The notes below the pieces were generated by a model that did not search any database, was not told where the DNA came from, and saw only the letters and a list, made by a program, of their open reading frames with translations. A stretch of 25,380 nucleotides of DNA from a virus. This document shows, piece after piece, positions 18,649 to 25,380 of this stretch (positions are counted from its first letter, which is position 1; every line of letters starts with the position of its first letter). A program made the translations under genes and the position numbers. Location of the stretch: positions 1-25,380 of IMG/VR virus record IMGVR_UViG_3300047375_000354, one strand, 5' to 3'.

Positions 18649-19488
18649 CTATGCGTCTTGCAGATCTTCTTCCAAACTTGAGACACTTGCGATTGCATCA
18701 ATTGCATCATCGTCCGTTTGAGATTGTCGCAATGCTTTTTGGTGCATTGAGTCAACCAAGTTGTTCTCAGCCTCAATCATACTTCCAATGACTTTCATCG
18801 TGTCAAAAGTCTTTTGGTCTAATGGGAGAGCCTTAGATAGCTTTGGCTTAAAGTGCATAACGTAGTAGTACACTGAGCCATTTTTAAGTTCTTCAGCCGA
18901 AACTTCAGCCTCATAATCATAGAAGTTACTGCCTCTTGGAAGACGTTTGATATACTCATCTTCGAAGGGATTAAAATTGGTGCCTTTAAGCATTAGGATG
19001 GCGGGCGTAGGTTCTACTGTAACTTCATCACCAGTTGCGTTCTTACCAGTGTAACTGATCAAAGCACGAACCTGACGAAAACACGTTGTGTTCTCATGCT
19101 TCTTTTTAATCTCTTCACTAGCGTCACGAAGTTCTTTGCTAGTCGGCTTTCCACAACGAATTCCACCCTTCATATCCCTAGCCTCACAACGGAAATTAGG
19201 AATTAAAAGAGTTTTATTTGCCACGCCTTTGGCTGCAGGATCGTATTGAATCCATTGAAACATTTGACTGAGGGGGCGTATTGTCACCTTCTCAGCAAAC
19301 ACTGGCTCATCCGTATTGGTCAAATAGAGTTGGCCAATTGGTAAGGAGTTTCCTTGCTCATCCTTTCGATCTTGATTTGCCTTCAACTTTGGAAGTCTAG
19401 CATTGTTGGTATTCTCTTTTGCGTTTCCACCTAAGAGGGCAGCCAATTTAGCTTCTTCGTTTGGGTCTACTGCTACTAATTCATTCAT
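18649..19488 (-). CDS. Putative single-stranded DNA-binding protein
   Basis: The protein has 279 residues. The N-terminal 45 residues are polar; the middle (about 50-235) is mixed beta-rich, with four cysteines (C99, C107 by my count, and others near GIRCGKPT and TTCFRQVRALISYTGK) that could bind zinc. The C-terminal 35 residues are Asp/Glu rich and end SSLEEDLQDA, an acidic tail as in T7 gp2.5 and other SSBs that recruits partner proteins. It has its own promoter with a TGACACT element and its own strong terminator, consistent with an abundantly made protein, and it sits between the DNA polymerase and the nuclease. GAGGA lies 7 nt before the ATG. No decisive domain is visible; another replication accessory role is possible. 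Confidence 0.55.
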   Translation of the reverse strand: MNELVAVDPNEEAKLAALLGGNAKENTNNARLPKLKANQDRKDEQGNSLPIGQLYLTNTDEPVFAEKVTIRPLSQMFQWIQYDPAAKGVANKTLLIPNFRCEARDMKGGIRCGKPTSKELRDASEEIKKKHENTTCFRQVRALISYTGKNATGDEVTVEPTPAILMLKGTNFNPFEDEYIKRLPRGSNFYDYEAEVSAEELKNGSVYYYVMHFKPKLSKALPLDQKTFDTMKVIGSMIEAENNLVDSMHQKALRQSQTDDDAIDAIASVSSLEEDLQDA

Positions 19489-19528: not shown

Positions 19529-19564
19529 ACAGTACATTAATTAGTGTCATAGGTCAACACTAAT
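19529..19564 (-). promoter_or_regulatory. Promoter P1 with TGACACT element and operator-like palindrome
   Basis: Minus strand: -35 TTGACC (19552-19557), 17-nt spacer, -10 TACTGT (19529-19534), about 34 nt leader to the ATG at 19488. The spacer holds TGACACTAATTA. An 8-bp perfect inverted repeat, ATTAGTGT (19540-19547) and ACACTAAT (19557-19564), straddles the -35 box, suggesting a dimeric repressor site. It overlaps the last codons of the polymerase gene. Confidence 0.7.
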
Positions 19565-21655
19565 ATCCTGTGTATCCATCCAATTGGGGCCGATTTCTGC
19601 CTCAACATCTAATGGAATATTTACTTTAAAATTAAACCTTTCAAATATTTCATCATCAATATCTCGCATAGCCCAAGTTAAGGCTTTAACGACATCTGTG
19701 CTTTCACCTGGAAAAACATCGACCACGAGTGAGTCGTGTACAGTCAGAATAAGCTTTGATTTCAATCTGTTATCTTTGAACCTTCTAAACGCTCGGACAC
19801 ATGCCACAACCATGATGTCAGCCGTAGCAAATGACTGACAAGGATAATTAACAATGTTGGTTTGGTTTGTTACTCTGCCACCCCTCAACCTTTTAACATT
19901 TGGAAATGCAAACTCTCTGCCACTAGGAGTCTTGATTACACCATCTTTAAGAGCGTCCGTTGTTAGTGTCGTATGCCATTTTTTAAGACCATCATAAACG
20001 TTGAAGAACTCTTTAAAATAGGTCTGTACATGAGGGGGTTCCCCCATCCCCATCCCGCCATATAACGGGGCGAACGTAAATTGTTTCGAGGCTTGGCGGA
20101 GATCTTTAGAAACATCCTTTGGAGCACACCGATAAATAATAGAGGCAGTCTGTCGATGTATGTCTTTGCCGTTGAGGATATCATCTTTTATTTGTTGATC
20201 CCCAGACAGCAGCCCCGCCACTCTGAATTCCAATCCTGAGTAGTCCATTTCTAAAGTCTGGCCACCCTCAAATCGAGAGACTACACACCTCCGAACTGGA
20301 AATTTCTTAGGTTGGTTTTGAAAATTTGGATTGCTCGATGACAGCCTACCAGTACGGGTAGTGCATTGATTAAACTGTGCGTGAAGAATTCCATCTGAGC
20401 GAACCCAAGTTCGAATGCCCTTTATAGACGTATCTATATAGTTGCTTACAGCATGGAGCCTAGTAATCTTTGTTAGGAACTCAATTGCCTTTTTGTTCTC
20501 TTTAAGTTCAGCCTGCTTAATCAAATTTTTGATTGTAATCTTATCTGTCTTGAACCCATTTATTGAGACATCTTTAACACCCTCTGGGATAAGTTTAAGT
20601 CCAGCAACTTTGTCAGTATTAGTAAGAAGGAAACCCCTCTTCTTGCACTCTGAACACCCAGTAATATTTTTGTAGGGCGTTCCATCCTTTTTAAATTTCT
20701 GGTACTGCCCCTTGCCATTACAAGTATTGCAGTGGTGTGCAATCGTCCTTTTAATAACCTTGGTTTGATACTTAACTGTATTGTTAAATTGATCTGGTTT
20801 CATAAACCGTGGGGGGAGGGGTCTGCCTCTTCCGTTGGTGCCAATGTTAAATATTCTTTTCCACGCATCCCTATCCAAAACTTCCCTACTATATATAACC
20901 TTGGTCATATCTTGCCCACTGTGAAGGTTAATAGGGGTATCTCCCATCACCTCTGCCACCAACGTGTCCAAATCTATTTTTAATTGCTTTCGCTCAGTCT
21001 CTAGCTCTTGCTCAACAACATCTAGCATTGGGAGGTCTATTTTAATTCCGTTACTCTCAATCTCAGTAAGGAATAAAAGCATCTCATTCATCAGTTGAAA
21101 TATTGGTTTTAGGCTAGTGTTATCGGGTTGATTGAGTTCATCGATCTGAGCCAAATAAATCTCTGCACATGACTGAACGTCAGCATCGAGGTATTCCAAA
21201 ACCGTATCCAAAGGCATTGCCTCAAACCCTGTGCCACCCTTGAAGAGTTCATCTACTAGGGCATCTTTCTTCCTAGTAACATCTCGTCTTTCTGCGGTTT
21301 CTTTGAGACTTTTTCTTACATCCAAGCCCCTTGCAAAAATGTACTCTCCAATCATCGTGCAATAGACGGGTGGGCATTCGAAACCTGTCGCTACAAGATA
21401 AGAATAATCAAACTTAGCATTATGGCAGACCAACAAGTCTGCATCTGCCAAATCTGCTTTTAAGTCCTCTGGGGTATCTGCTACTTGTTGCTCATCGTGA
21501 AAGAAAATAGATCGTTTTAACTCACCCAACACTCCATTATCGATCATCAACCACCCGGCAGCCACGATCTTATTGTGAGGGTTGTACGGACTATTATCTT
21601 TCTGACCATCCATATTTTGGACAGTGGTTTCTAAATCTAAAACAATAACCTTCAT
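19547..21655 (-). CDS. Family-A DNA polymerase with DnaJ-like zinc finger
   Basis: The protein has 702 residues from the ATG at 21655; that start begins directly with the exonuclease motif and falls 4 nt after the deaminase stop, whereas an upstream in-frame codon at 21721 would add 22 non-family residues. 3'-5' exonuclease: LDLE at 6-9, NAKFD at 79-83, YLDAD at 155-159. Insert: CNTCNGKG at 309-316 (C309, C312) and CSECKKRGF at 334-342 (C334, C337), a two-CxxC DnaJ-type zinc site. Polymerase: TGRLSSSNPNFQNQ at 435-448, motif A DYSGLEFR (D471), motif B RQASKQFTFAPLYG at 520-533 (K524, Phe528 at the E. coli F762 position), motif C VHDS (D641, Ser where most have Glu). All catalytic aspartates are intact. 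It replicates the phage genome. The zinc insert matches what I recall for phage HMO-2011. Confidence 0.95.
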   Translation of the reverse strand: MKVIVLDLETTVQNMDGQKDNSPYNPHNKIVAAGWLMIDNGVLGELKRSIFFHDEQQVADTPEDLKADLADADLLVCHNAKFDYSYLVATGFECPPVYCTMIGEYIFARGLDVRKSLKETAERRDVTRKKDALVDELFKGGTGFEAMPLDTVLEYLDADVQSCAEIYLAQIDELNQPDNTSLKPIFQLMNEMLLFLTEIESNGIKIDLPMLDVVEQELETERKQLKIDLDTLVAEVMGDTPINLHSGQDMTKVIYSREVLDRDAWKRIFNIGTNGRGRPLPPRFMKPDQFNNTVKYQTKVIKRTIAHHCNTCNGKGQYQKFKKDGTPYKNITGCSECKKRGFLLTNTDKVAGLKLIPEGVKDVSINGFKTDKITIKNLIKQAELKENKKAIEFLTKITRLHAVSNYIDTSIKGIRTWVRSDGILHAQFNQCTTRTGRLSSSNPNFQNQPKKFPVRRCVVSRFEGGQTLEMDYSGLEFRVAGLLSGDQQIKDDILNGKDIHRQTASIIYRCAPKDVSKDLRQASKQFTFAPLYGGMGMGEPPHVQTYFKEFFNVYDGLKKWHTTLTTDALKDGVIKTPSGREFAFPNVKRLRGGRVTNQTNIVNYPCQSFATADIMVVACVRAFRRFKDNRLKSKLILTVHDSLVVDVFPGESTDVVKALTWAMRDIDDEIFERFNFKVNIPLDVEAEIGPNWMDTQDISVDL

Positions 21656-21659
21656 ATTT

Positions 21660-22103
21660 TTATATGATGTTAAGATATTTGAATGGGCTGAATTCAACGT
21701 ATTCAATTTGTGACTCCTCAATTATTATTTGCGCTTCTTTGAAGTTGTACCGATCTATTGGATCTGCACTTGGTGGTGGCGCGATTAGTTTTGTTATTCC
21801 GCTTGATAAGATTGCCTTTGTGCAGGCTAAACAGGGGTGGTGAGTTACAAGCATAGTCGCAGAGCGAAGACCCCAACCATGCTTTGCGAAGTCTGCTATT
21901 GCCGCCTGTTCTGCGTGAACCATGCAAATGTGTTTGTCAGAGAAATTAAGATTTCTTGAATGTCTAATTTGGGTGGGAAACCTATTCGTGTATAAAAGTT
22001 TGGCACCATCAGTCACCGTAATTAAACAACCCACTTTTGTATCAGGATCGTCAGAATATTTTTGGGCATACTTTCTCGCTGAGAAAAAATCTTTATTCAA
22101 CAT
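21660..22103 (-). CDS. dCMP deaminase-like zinc deaminase
   Basis: The protein has 147 residues from the ATG at 22103. The zinc site is intact: VHAEQAAI at 62-69 (H63, catalytic E65) and HHPCLACTKAIL at 88-99 (C91, C94). The N-terminus AQKYSDDPDTKVGCLI is typical of the deoxycytidylate deaminase group, which makes dUMP from dCMP to feed dTTP synthesis. It overlaps the helicase stop by 11 nt. An in-frame ATG at 22145 would add 14 residues deeper inside the helicase gene; the shorter start fits the family better. It is followed at once by the polymerase gene. No thymidylate synthase is seen in the window. Confidence 0.88.
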   Translation of the reverse strand: MLNKDFFSARKYAQKYSDDPDTKVGCLITVTDGAKLLYTNRFPTQIRHSRNLNFSDKHICMVHAEQAAIADFAKHGWGLRSATMLVTHHPCLACTKAILSSGITKLIAPPPSADPIDRYNFKEAQIIIEESQIEYVEFSPFKYLNII

Positions 22104-23319
22104 AGCGAGAGGTATCACCTTCCAAGCTACAGATGATCGTTCCATGCCATCCAGACAGCTTATTTTTGCTGACGGTTAAGTATCTGGTGTTATCTGGTTC
22201 ACTGTCATCCACATCACCCTGTTCATGCTTCCCTATGCCGATACACAAATCGAGTTCTGCCATTTTACCGATTTTGGAACCTTCCATATCGAACCCCGAT
22301 AGGCGAACCTTACCTCTGGCTTCGGCACTTGCTTGGCTAACTGTGATCAACCCAACTTGCTGGCGTTTTGCCAATTCTCGCAAAGACTGAAACAGCCCCC
22401 TCAAACGCTCATGGCTTGAGTTGAAAGATCCATTAATCTGGCACTTGTCACCTTGATCCAAGATAAGGATGTCACAACCTTCATGCTCAATGTAGGATTC
22501 TATTTTAGCCAAATCCCACTCTTGAACGTCCTGCATTGTTATATTGTTTTCGATGGTGCTAAACCTACCAACTGCCTCAGAGGGGTTCTTGGCAATTTCT
22601 TCTCTTGTCATTCCAGAGTAGGCTTGAATAGAGCGAAGCATCGTGCGTTCAGTCTCTTCCTCATTACCTAAGTAGATAACCCTAGCACCTTGTTCAGCAA
22701 ACCCACCGGGGCCACAACAAAGGCTAATAGCAAAAGCTGACTTACCTGTTTCGGGCAACGCCATAACAGCCATAAACTCTCCTGGACCGATACCATATAC
22801 GGAACGGCTCAGAGTGGATATGTTGAACTTCCATCTGTTTTCGTTTGAGGTTTTAAATAGGAGTTTTTCAATGTTCTTAGTGGTAGGCTCACCAAACTCA
22901 GAGGGCATCATCCCATCTTTGGTGGTATCGATTAAAGACTTCAGCCGATCAAAAGCATCTGGCATCCCCTCAGTAATCTCGATGCCAAGGTTTGCAATCT
23001 TGGTGCCTATATCACGCTTCCACAACTCTTTGACGTAATGGGTGGCAACCTCATTACCTAGCTCTGACGCTCTGTCGATTGACTCTATCTGTTGTCGAAC
23101 ATCGTTTTGTTCAGATTGAGTAGCAACAGGATTTGCTTGCAGCCAACAGGCGTAGAGGTCTGTAGTAGATAGGTTAGAAGAAAACTTATCATGGGCATCT
23201 GATATGCACCGATATAAGTTTTTGTAATTTCCCTGGAATAATGAGGACTTTAAATTAGTCTTTTGTTCCTTGAAAAAATCGTAGTCGAGTAGTTTTTTTA
23301 ATACTAATGTGTCCATCAT
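22093..23319 (-). CDS. DnaB-like replicative helicase
   Basis: The protein has 408 residues. An N-terminal helical region (1-165) resembles a reduced DnaB N-domain. The RecA-like C-domain has ALPETGKSAFA with Walker A residues at 187-194 (G192, K193, S194; the usual first Gly is Ala), NEEE at 219-222, Walker B CDILILDQGDK at 282-292 with D288, GLITVSQAS at 323-331 (the Q motif of DnaB H3/H4) and YLTVSKNKLSG at 380-390 (arginine-finger/KNR region). It unwinds DNA ahead of the polymerase as a hexamer. It is encoded apart from the primase, unlike the fused T7 gp4. It has its own TGACACT promoter and a leader of about 23 nt. Two adjacent ATGs (23319, 23316) can serve as start. Confidence 0.9.
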   Translation of the reverse strand: MMDTLVLKKLLDYDFFKEQKTNLKSSLFQGNYKNLYRCISDAHDKFSSNLSTTDLYACWLQANPVATQSEQNDVRQQIESIDRASELGNEVATHYVKELWKRDIGTKIANLGIEITEGMPDAFDRLKSLIDTTKDGMMPSEFGEPTTKNIEKLLFKTSNENRWKFNISTLSRSVYGIGPGEFMAVMALPETGKSAFAISLCCGPGGFAEQGARVIYLGNEEETERTMLRSIQAYSGMTREEIAKNPSEAVGRFSTIENNITMQDVQEWDLAKIESYIEHEGCDILILDQGDKCQINGSFNSSHERLRGLFQSLRELAKRQQVGLITVSQASAEARGKVRLSGFDMEGSKIGKMAELDLCIGIGKHEQGDVDDSEPDNTRYLTVSKNKLSGWHGTIICSLEGDTSRYVE

Positions 23320-23348
23320 GTCATCCCTAGTGACTTAGTTAGTGAGGC

Positions 23349-23377
23349 AAAGTACCATAATTAGTGTCACAAGGGAA
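23349..23377 (-). promoter_or_regulatory. Promoter P2 with TGACACT element (helicase)
   Basis: Minus strand: -10 TACTTT (23349-23354) preceded by TGG (extended -10), 17-nt spacer containing TGACACTAATTA, and a poor -35 TTCCCT (23372-23377). The TGACACT lies at the same distance from the -10 as in P1 and P3. The weak -35 suggests either activation by a bound protein or reliance on the extended -10. Confidence 0.65.
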
Positions 23378-23380
23378 GGT

Positions 23381-23406
23381 AAAAAAAACCCCTCCAAAAA
23401 GAAGGG
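23381..23406 (-). terminator. Rho-independent terminator upstream of the helicase promoter
   Basis: Minus strand: CCCCTTC, a TTTTT loop, GGAGGGG (7-bp stem with one G-T pair), then eight T residues. It ends the primase transcript after the small gene at 23416 and lies just before promoter P2, so helicase expression is uncoupled from the primase. Confidence 0.88.
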
Positions 23407-23415
23407 GCTTTAATT

Positions 23416-23631
23416 TTAGCTGATGCGTAGTTTCATTTTCTTGATATCGGGATTTGAGTGAGCTCTATGCTCTCGCCTCTCTCTTATATCTACTGCACTG
23501 AAAACCACTCTAGGGTTTCCGTTAACTAATGTATCTATTGCATCTTTTAGTCTTTGTTGCTCTTCACCTGCGTCTATGAACCCATTAGGCAATTCATAGT
23601 CAATGATGGCAATGCCTCTAGCTTTAAACAT
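23416..23631 (-). CDS. Small protein, unknown
   Basis: The protein has 71 residues from the ATG at 23631, with GGGG 6 nt upstream; a GTG at 23643 would add four residues. It has a mixed beta/alpha pattern: FKARGIAIIDYELPNGF, a charged helix (EEQQRLKDAIDTLV), then RVVFSAVDIRERREHR and a basic tail. There are no cysteines or membrane segments. It ends 10 nt before a strong terminator and so closes the primase transcript. I do not recognise the family; the basic C-terminus would allow nucleic-acid contact. Confidence 0.7.
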   Translation of the reverse strand: MFKARGIAIIDYELPNGFIDAGEEQQRLKDAIDTLVNGNPRVVFSAVDIRERREHRAHSNPDIKKMKLRIS

Positions 23632-23670
23632 TTTATTCCCCACAATTAAAAATTATTTTTAAATACTAAA

Positions 23671-23916
23671 TTACTGAGTGGGGTGGGGTGGCCCAATAGG
23701 GGGGTTTAGCCAATTACTTGCTCTTTCAAAAATCCCAAGAGATAATGAGCTTTTTGAAATATTTGTGGCTGCTATCTTTCTCAATATAGCTTGCAGTAGA
23801 GAAGAAGAGTTAACCAGGTATGACCAAGGATAGTTTGATGCAGACCTAGTTTCTCTAGGTGTACTAGAATTACCAAATCGATTAGCTATGATATGGTTAC
23901 CTTTATTTATAAACAT
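23671..23916 (-). CDS. Small Ser/Asn-rich protein, uncertain
   Basis: An 81-residue open frame fills the space between the primase and the next small gene, overlapping the primase end by 14 nt. The leader GAGAAAAAGAAA is purine rich but lacks a clear Shine-Dalgarno core. The product is Ser, Asn and Pro rich (ending NPPIGPPHPTQ), with one amphipathic stretch (SLLQAILRKIAATNISKSS). Context and coverage of an otherwise empty 260-nt gap favour a gene, composition gives little help, and I do not recognise it. Confidence 0.45.
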   Translation of the reverse strand: MFINKGNHIIANRFGNSSTPRETRSASNYPWSYLVNSSSLLQAILRKIAATNISKSSLSLGIFERASNWLNPPIGPPHPTQ

Positions 23917-24703
23917 TTTCTTTTTCTCGACCCCGCAATAGGGCTTTACAAAAACTATCCAAATCTAAATCATCCATTTCTTTTATATCCTTTTGTAAGA
24001 ACCTCACTGTTACATTAGGATGAGTTATGGCCTTAGATAGCTTTATACTACTTTTCGATGCGTCCTTGTCAAGTGCTACAATTACTCTCTTATAATTAAG
24101 CAGTTGTGACATTTGTGATTGATTTAAAGAGGTTCCGCACAAAGCAACGCCACACAATCCCATCTCTGCAACAACGGCTGCAGATGGTACATCCTCAACT
24201 AAAACTGCAATATCTGATTCACCAATAATGAATAATTTACTTTTGTTTCCGTAGGTTAGCCACTTTGGTAGGCGTTTGCTAAGTGATCTTCCTACTGCAA
24301 AACTCTCATCTGAAGATAAAAACAGTACTCGATCTTCTACTGGGTCATATTTGACATTAATTAAGTTATTAATGAATGCATAATAACAGTTCGTTTGTTT
24401 CAAATATGTCACAACTTTAGGATGGTTGTTGGGATGTGATAGAACACTAGGCACTTCTCTACTGTTTTTTGTGGGGGGAGAAGTAAAGGTTTTATTCTTA
24501 ATATCATCTAAAGAATACCCTACTGAAACGCCCCCTCTAGCACTGCATGATGCTTTAAAGCAGTTCCAAAGTACTTTTCCATTCAATTGAGTAACAGTGA
24601 ATTTATTACGTCCATTACAGAAAGGGCATGTAATAGTCTTTCTTTGACCCGAATTTAATGTAAGTGTATTTATAAATTCAACTTGTTCTCTGTAAGGTAT
24701 CAT
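23903..24703 (-). CDS. DnaG-type primase
   Basis: The protein has 266 residues. The N-terminal zinc-binding part has C26 and C29 (CPFCNGRNKF) and C48 and C53 (WNCFKASCSARG), as in T7 gp4 and DnaG. A TOPRIM domain follows: LVEDVPSA at 168-175 with E170, and VIVALDKDAS at 207-216 with D212 and D214 for metal. It makes RNA primers for lagging-strand synthesis. The ATG at 24703 has AGGGG 6 nt upstream. An in-frame TTG at 24787 would extend it by 28 residues but lies in the -35 box of promoter P3, so it cannot be on that transcript. Unlike T7, the helicase is a separate gene, starting about 580 nt downstream. Confidence 0.9.
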   Translation of the reverse strand: MIPYREQVEFINTLTLNSGQRKTITCPFCNGRNKFTVTQLNGKVLWNCFKASCSARGGVSVGYSLDDIKNKTFTSPPTKNSREVPSVLSHPNNHPKVVTYLKQTNCYYAFINNLINVKYDPVEDRVLFLSSDESFAVGRSLSKRLPKWLTYGNKSKLFIIGESDIAVLVEDVPSAAVVAEMGLCGVALCGTSLNQSQMSQLLNYKRVIVALDKDASKSSIKLSKAITHPNVTVRFLQKDIKEMDDLDLDSFCKALLRGREKENVYK

Positions 24704-24758
24704 ATTGCTCCCCTCTGCCCCTAGCGTTTTGGTATAGCTCGGCCCGGAAGGCCTCGCA

Positions 24759-24787
24759 AAAATACCATCGAAAGTGTCACTCGTCAA
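24759..24787 (-). promoter_or_regulatory. Promoter P3 with TGACACT element (primase)
   Basis: Minus strand: -35 TTGACG (24782-24787), 17-nt spacer with TGACACT, extended -10 TGG plus TATTTT (24759-24764). The leader to the primase ATG is about 49 nt. A second, inverted TGACACT copy lies upstream at 24798-24804 on the plus strand, making a widely spaced inverted pair around the -35. Confidence 0.75.
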
Positions 24788-24814
24788 CCCTAGCTATGAC
24801 ACTAGGTACATGGC

Positions 24815-24903
24815 TCCCCCATAGGCAACCTTGTAAGTCATTGAAATCATTGACGCTACATGTAATCAGTAGGTCCGCGGTTCGAGTCCGTGTGGGGGCA
24901 CCA
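24815..24903 (+). other. tRNA-Thr(UGU)-derived sequence, likely phage attachment site (attP)
   Basis: From TGTAATCAGTAGGTC at 24861 to the CCA at 24901-24903 the sequence has the form of the 3' half of a bacterial tRNA-Thr(UGU): anticodon UGU and loop end, anticodon 3' strand TCAGT, five-base variable loop AGGTC, T arm CGCGG-TTCGAGT-CCGTG (five pairs, one G-U), acceptor TGGGGGC, A and CCA. The 5' side (24815-24860) is degenerate: TCCCCCATA at 24815 can pair six of seven acceptor bases and ATTGA at 24849-24853 can pair with TCAGT, but the D arm and a 7-nt anticodon loop are missing. A 3' tRNA half that restores the host gene on integration is the usual form of a tyrosine-integrase attP. It is not a working tRNA. 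Confidence 0.7.
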
Positions 24904-24980: not shown

Positions 24981-25380
24981 TATTTTGTGACACTAGTGAA
25001 CAAGGGTTTATGACCCATCCATAAGTTGACGATAAAAGCCCTTCTCTGACCACTGTAGACCTTGCTCACTCGATGAGAGCTACTTGGATCAAACATTATG
25101 AGTCTGTTGTGAACAGGTGCTATACGCTCCACACTGTCGGGATCGTTGTTATATTCGATCTCTAAAAAGCCACCCTCAATGTCATGTTTGAACGGATAGA
25201 GGATAGCCCCATACTCTGGGGTAATCACTCTCCCACTCGCCTCACAGAGTTCCTCATCCTTATCCTGGTGCCAATCTAGACCACCCCCAGAGTGGGTGTT
25301 AGTCCACCATTCAAAACCTTTGGCTGCAGCCACATTGGGGTAATGTCTCCAAATGTTATATATTATTCTTTCCCAGAAGG
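24980..25380 (-). CDS. 2OG-Fe(II) oxygenase, N-terminus beyond right window edge
   Basis: The frame stays open to the right edge (133 codons visible) and the edge part reads as ordinary protein (WERIIYNIWRHYPNV), so the start lies outside; a GTG at 25333 is not needed as start. Iron site: LDWHQDKDEE gives H-x-D, and IMFDPSSSHRVSKV supplies the distal His, followed by GQRRAFIVNLW with the 2-oxoglutarate-binding Arg. GAILYPFKHDIEGGFLEIEY is the usual beta-strand pair of the prolyl-hydroxylase-like fold. Substrate unknown; it is a different subfamily from the oxygenase at 11718. The end is followed by the tRNA-derived site. Confidence 0.85.
   Translation of the reverse strand, partial: FWERIIYNIWRHYPNVAAAKGFEWWTNTHSGGGLDWHQDKDEELCEASGRVITPEYGAILYPFKHDIEGGFLEIEYNNDPDSVERIAPVHNRLIMFDPSSSHRVSKVYSGQRRAFIVNLWMGHKPLFTSVTK

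Follow-up and report, generated by a model that had tools for sequence, protein, structure and literature searches.

The stretch analysed here (the window) is a virus record of 25.4 kb, IMGVR_UViG_3300047375_000354, whose minus strand carries replication genes and whose plus strand carries structural genes. Three promoters of its replication module, P1, P2 and P3, contain the same TGACACT element, which is probably one half of an operator for a regulator encoded by the phage itself. The window phage is of the HMO-2011 type, an abundant ocean virus type, and is nearest to subgroup III: its DNA polymerase, with a DnaJ-type insert, is closest to those of CRP-3, CRP-212, CRP-235 and CRP-738 (57, 55, 53 and 50% identity, respectively), and an integrase lies upstream of the replication module. 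The integrase of this lineage is seen in L004, a second record of essentially the same phage (100% polymerase identity) that reaches 4.2 kb past the right end of the window and holds there the integrase, a DUF932 gene and small genes. The features of the window that matter for the argument are the following.

18649..19488, minus strand: gene transcribed from P1, conserved in subgroup III (searches)
19529..19557, minus strand: P1, promoter of the gene after the DNA polymerase; -35 TTGACC at 19552-19557, element TGACACTAATTA at 19538-19549, -10 TACTGT at 19529-19534
19540..19564, minus strand: P1 inverted repeat ATTAGTGT-N9-ACACTAAT; the upstream arm overlaps the -35 and the last polymerase codons
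19547..21652, minus strand: DNA polymerase A with a DnaJ-type CxxCxGxG insert (sequence and searches)
22093..23319, minus strand: replicative helicase, transcribed from P2 (searches)
23349..23377, minus strand: P2, helicase promoter; TTCCCT, element TGACACTAATTA at 23358-23369, extended -10 TGG-TACTTT at 23349-23354
23385..23415, minus strand: intrinsic-terminator-like hairpin with a T run, just upstream of P2 (sequence)
23903..24703, minus strand: DNA primase, transcribed from P3 (searches)
24759..24787, minus strand: P3, primase promoter; TTGACG, element TGACACT at 24773-24779, extended -10 TGG-TATTTT at 24759-24764
24797..24803, plus strand: inverted extra TGACACT(A) upstream of P3 (sequence)
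24871..24903, plus strand: sequence like a tRNA 3′ end (GTTCGAGTCC...GGGGGCACCA), probable core of the phage attachment site, attP (sequence)
24988..24994, plus strand: further TGACACT(AG), on the other side of the tRNA-like att sequence (sequence)

As the original prediction had it, minus-strand TGACACT lies at 19543-19549, 23363-23369 and 24773-24779, each time inside the 17-nucleotide (nt) spacer of a sigma70-like promoter and exactly 8 nt before the -10 box. The layouts are TTGACC-TATGACACTAATTAATG-TACTGT at P1, TTCCCT-TGTGACACTAATTATGG-TACTTT at P2, which has a poor -35 and an extended -10 (TGG), and TTGACG-AGTGACACTTTCGATGG-TATTTT at P3. The string TGACACTAATTA is indeed common to P1 and P2, and both the inverted repeat described at P1 and the inverted copy described upstream of P3 are present. 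P1, P2 and P3 account for all three occurrences of the pattern TGACACT-N8-TANNNT in the window, against 0.04 expected, and at least three occurrences were reached in none of 100 shuffles. The bare 7-mer is not enriched (7 copies against 3.7 expected, the remaining ones being at 946 and 2174, both coding, and at 24988-24994 close to the tRNA-like att sequence), so it is the register that carries the signal and not the count. At P1, the element takes its TGA from the stop codon of the DNA polymerase gene, whose final residues (ISVDL*) are encoded by the upstream arm of the repeat; since coding partly explains that arm, the arm taken alone is weak evidence. The hairpin just upstream of P2 suggests that expression of the helicase-polymerase block probably depends on P2, and GGGGC-T(n) hairpins likewise precede the helicase promoter in many relatives. 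The gene behind P1 had been labelled a single-stranded DNA-binding protein, a label that neither Pfam nor PDB searches support.

Is this register kept in related phages? The promoter before the P1-controlled gene was taken from 107 unique loci, where it mostly has a TTGAC(T)-like and a TANNNT-like box separated by a spacer of 17-18 nt that contains a CAC(Y)TA(A/G)(C/T)TA-like element. Among 32 deduplicated promoters with a 17-nt spacer, information peaks at spacer positions 9-14 (1.0-1.55 bits), matching several -10 positions; the TAA(C/T)TA centre is conserved and the outer half-site positions vary between phages. The original prediction hinged on the motif recurring in homologous promoters. 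The literal letters TGACACT are often absent from relatives, and what recurs is a diverged element in the same register. In L016, a 95-98% relative, the element is unchanged while adjacent bases differ. The subgroup I phages carry a different spacer sequence, which is not seen again in their early promoters.

Palindromes found in CRP-212 (ACACCTAATTAGGTG), CRP-3 (GCACTTAACTAGGTGC) and CRP-235 (CCACTTAATTAAGGG) show that the site is a dyad, which in the window phage would read about GACACTA-RY-TAGTGTC. Over 29.6 kb of this phage, P1 is the best dyad match (14/16 to GACACTARYTAGTGTC) and P2 the second best (13/16); the P1 dyad, ACAC-N6-ATGT, is slightly shorter than those of CRP-212 and CRP-3. 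In the latter two phages, inverted half-sites with an 8-bp spacer sit in noncoding promoters: GTGT-N8-ACAC, with 4 copies, is the only spacing between 0 and 20 seen in the noncoding DNA of CRP-212, and CRP-3 has 4 N8 copies of inverted half-sites. Half-site 7-mers are enriched in noncoding DNA. Pair statistics that allowed one mismatch gave little, and spacing counts with a fixed core were clearer.

If one protein reads these sites, their letters should agree within each genome. The 12 bases of each P1 element were matched to the helicase and primase upstream regions of its own and of foreign genomes. Own helicase regions matched at 8.78 of 12 bases against 8.05 for foreign ones (27 genomes, p <= 1e-4 in two permutation runs) and own primase regions at 8.74 against 7.99 (23 genomes, p = 1.5e-4), these p-values being approximate because the sequences are related. 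Six of eight neighbouring-sequence controls gave p > 0.2 and the other two p = 0.01-0.04. Since P1 and P2 are non-homologous sequences, the match between own pairs does not follow from shared ancestry by itself. CRP-3, CRP-212 and CRP-235 have a common host strain, FZCC0040, and the base that they favour before the CAC core in noncoding DNA is G, A and C, respectively (p = 0.00025; coding control, p = 0.33). The sites drift in step across the promoters of one genome, as they would with a phage-encoded factor. Together, the within-genome concordance and the divergence between phages of one host strain argue for such a factor coevolving with its sites. The proposal that one trans-acting factor serves P1-P3 is thus well supported by the shared register in homologous promoters, the coordinated drift and the differing same-host versions.

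The sites extend beyond the replication module. In CRP-212, sites of the ACACYTAR type (the P1 version is ACACCTAATTA) lie upstream of int, the primase, the helicase, the P1 gene, a DUF1127 gene, DUF932, a conserved gene for 111 amino acids (aa) and the capsid gene; in CRP-3, sites of the GCACYTAR type lie at int, the primase, the helicase, the P1 gene, the DUF1127 gene and the homologue of the 111-aa gene of CRP-212. A regulon restricted to early genes, as first proposed, is therefore not supported, because int, left-arm and, in CRP-212, capsid promoters also bear sites. Recurrence of one site at several promoters of a genome, as seen here, is what characterizes a dispersed phage operator regulon. 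The placement of the site varies, the site being reversed at int in CRP-212 and CRP-3 and near +1 in L092.

What kind of protein would use such a site? From the DNA letters, we infer that a protein binds it, that this protein represses rather than activates and that it is of phage origin. In our preferred reading, which we regard as probable, each TGACACT element is one half of an operator bound by a phage-encoded regulator; this protein would most likely be a repressor and would coevolve with its sites. The dyad would place its strong half in the spacer and its weaker half running into the -10 box, so that a dimeric regulator, by covering the -35/-10 region, would repress promoters that would otherwise suit host sigma70 RNA polymerase, as phage immunity or early-lytic repressors do. 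Through coevolution of regulator and sites, the TARYTA centre would stay common to the phage lineages while the operator letters around it came to differ from lineage to lineage, and the system might serve lysogeny or timing. Repression is favoured because the dyad overlaps the spacer and -10 of promoters with good boxes and the optimal 17-nt spacing, because the position and orientation of the site differ between promoters, and because the group is temperate: integrases are present in HMO-2011-type phages (PMC6918029, PMC9038755) and CRP-3 has been shown to integrate, into a tRNA-Met gene (PMC6918029). A phage origin of the regulator is favoured because phages of one host strain use different versions. 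More tentatively, these sites may belong to a fast-diversifying regulon of the immunity or timing type, with a regulator family not yet recognised and one operator code per lineage, that governs early, integration and structural promoters alike.

Several points weigh against a coevolving repressor. In P3 and some relatives a second half-site can hardly be made out, and in CRP-235, L075 and L177 the P1 element fits the own helicase region no better than foreign ones. The promoters were chosen by a simple consensus score, and the kinship of the sequences bears on the permutation tests, as said. The poor -35 of P2 would also suit an activator. The matches listed for the scanned nonstructural proteins of CRP-3, CRP-235 and CRP-738 include no CI/Cro-type, MerR or ribbon-helix-helix repressor. 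A search with HTH_3 (XRE) found nothing over the cut-off in 8 large contigs of relatives, which is where this result applies, the window genome being partial.

The main rival to a repressor, though an unlikely one, is a phage-encoded activator or sigma-appropriating factor that would help host RNA polymerase at early or middle promoters, as MotA does in T4. The fixed register to the -10 in P1-P3 and the poor P2 -35 would fit such a factor, as would the many P1 -10 boxes that deviate from TATAAT (TACTGT, TACATT). T4 middle promoters do resemble the present ones in having a phage element at fixed spacing to a sigma70 -10 box. However, the MotA box takes the place of the -35, whereas here the -35 is kept, near the consensus TTGACT in P1 and most relatives and at a 17-nt spacing, and the element lies between -35 and -10 and is palindromic. 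Sites in both orientations, sites near +1 in some promoters and full palindromes also speak for a repressor rather than for an activator. Less likely again is a host transcription factor, exploited by the phages or controlling them. The TARYTA centre is conserved across phages of related hosts, which would fit a host factor, but the three phages from FZCC0040 differ in the outer bases, the element drifts coordinately within each genome and a different spacer element, ACTTAAAATA, is shared by promoters of the SAR11 phage HTVC033P. This last element takes the same position in two promoters of the TTGACA type near the polymerase and is found once more before the helicase (L028 7242, 10486 and 10828); it is possibly an independent version of the same architecture.

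Sites for recombination or replication, that is, integrase arm-type sites near attP or origin iterons, are improbable enough to be rejected: the roughly 220 bp surrounding the tRNA-like att sequence do contain three copies, but others lie in promoters 1.4-5 kb away, a CRP-212 copy stands before the capsid gene in the structural half, near promoter-like sequence, and the 8-bp spacers do not share one sequence, as a recombinase overlap region would. Still less credible, and likewise rejected, is the core of a promoter for a single-subunit RNA polymerase of the T7/SP6 type. The SP6 promoter core is GTGACACTATAG, and TGTGACACTAAT in the window resembles it. Nevertheless, the element is flanked by conserved -35 and -10 boxes, is found in either orientation and differs greatly from phage to phage; the annotations of the isolates include no RNA polymerase gene, and a search of 8 relatives with PF00940 gave no match (controls without a positive case; the window genome is partial). 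Chance or coding constraint, with promoters picked by eye and P1 overlapping the polymerase gene end, could account for the ordinary number of bare TGACACT copies and for the P1 upstream arm, which encodes conserved residues, but is scarcely credible given the register test, the within-genome concordance and the noncoding position of the P2 and P3 copies and of the capsid and helicase sites of CRP-212.

Dispersed phage operators are known as a kind. The C1 operators of bacteriophage P1 are numerous, spread over the genome and overlap promoters of different modules, as the present sites do, but they are 17-bp asymmetric sequences. The CI/Cro operators of lambda are dyads over the -35/-10 of early promoters of a temperate phage, again as here; unlike the present sites, found singly or in pairs at many promoters, they are clustered in two control regions, and no XRE-type regulator was detected here in the 8 large relatives or among the matches listed for the scanned isolate proteins. 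In Cluster A mycobacteriophages (the L5 clade), an immunity repressor acts with dispersed stoperators whose motifs drift with the repressor; these are 13-bp, asymmetric, monomer-bound sites in one main orientation (PMC6550527, PMC9283540). They share with our sites the many short copies per genome, the phage-specific versions and the early lytic promoters as targets, and in the way they work they appear to be the closest parallel. By site shape, the present sites do not belong to that family, since they are dyads or inverted pairs, in both orientations and tied to promoters. The setting is a group whose two main genome papers, by term search, nowhere mention promoters or repressors (PMC6918029, PMC9038755). 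The sites offer a testable cis-regulatory code from which the controlled promoters, and the immunity groups among phages that share a host, can be predicted; it also narrows the search for the regulator.

Neither the window nor the further 4.2 kb of L004 yielded the regulator, and it was not recognised among the scanned isolate proteins, for which the best 25 families of the Pfam and PHROGs scans were considered. A Rep repressor of the L5 type was not among the matches listed for these proteins, and no search aimed at it was made. Two candidates may be named, neither detected in all phages compared: a helix-turn-helix (HTH)-like protein of 79 aa in L004 (547-786), with a relative in CRP-738, and an HTH and coiled-coil protein, gp56 of CRP-3 and gp55 of CRP-212. 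Two other small proteins were considered and set aside. One, of 71-75 aa, is encoded between primase and helicase (window 23416-23643, minus strand) and conserved in ~89 related loci (MKARGIxxID...RERR...KKMKxR). It has no Pfam, PHROGs or PDB match, its structure model is a single long helix that matches no solved fold, and it is too conserved for operators that vary. The other is a very conserved helical protein of 80-95 aa from HMO-2011-type phages (INLxYIRAAIExxTGxxLxL...YLxEEGLIT; L235 3001-3279 and ~270 relatives), which has no PDB sequence match and whose Foldseek matches all have E > 2.

In its position, the tRNA-like att sequence of the window corresponds to the att core of CRP-3, which overlaps a tRNA-Met gene (PMC6918029). 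A complete tRNA gene was not found in the att region of the window, nor was a close prophage relative found in cellular genomes.

Some further observations concern small genes and repeats. A small, fast-changing open reading frame at 23671-23916 (minus strand) overlaps the end of the primase gene and keeps a PPxGPP-like C-terminal ending; its counterparts in L019, L020, L021 and IMG/VR loci are left unannotated in the isolates. Small DUF1127 proteins are encoded behind operator-bearing promoters at L019 46523-46672, L020 48374-48568, L021 47829-47972 and L022 47773-47916. All four CRP isolates have a stretch of 750-860 bp without annotated genes (L019 48354-49211, MZ892988.1 50166-50938, L021 48879-49631 and L022 48727-49532). 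Inside it lies a block common to the four, in variants of GTGCCACC..GTATAC..GACCAGAGATTGGG..CGTAAATGACCC, which may be an origin, a packaging site or an RNA. Finally, TTAACTCACTAGC is repeated on the minus strand of L004 (1286-1298, 1597-1609 and 2730-2742), just upstream of the ribosome-binding sites of left-arm genes, and a shorter form, TCACTAGC, stands before the integrase at about 2990 (plus strand); these repeats may be a leader or translation element.

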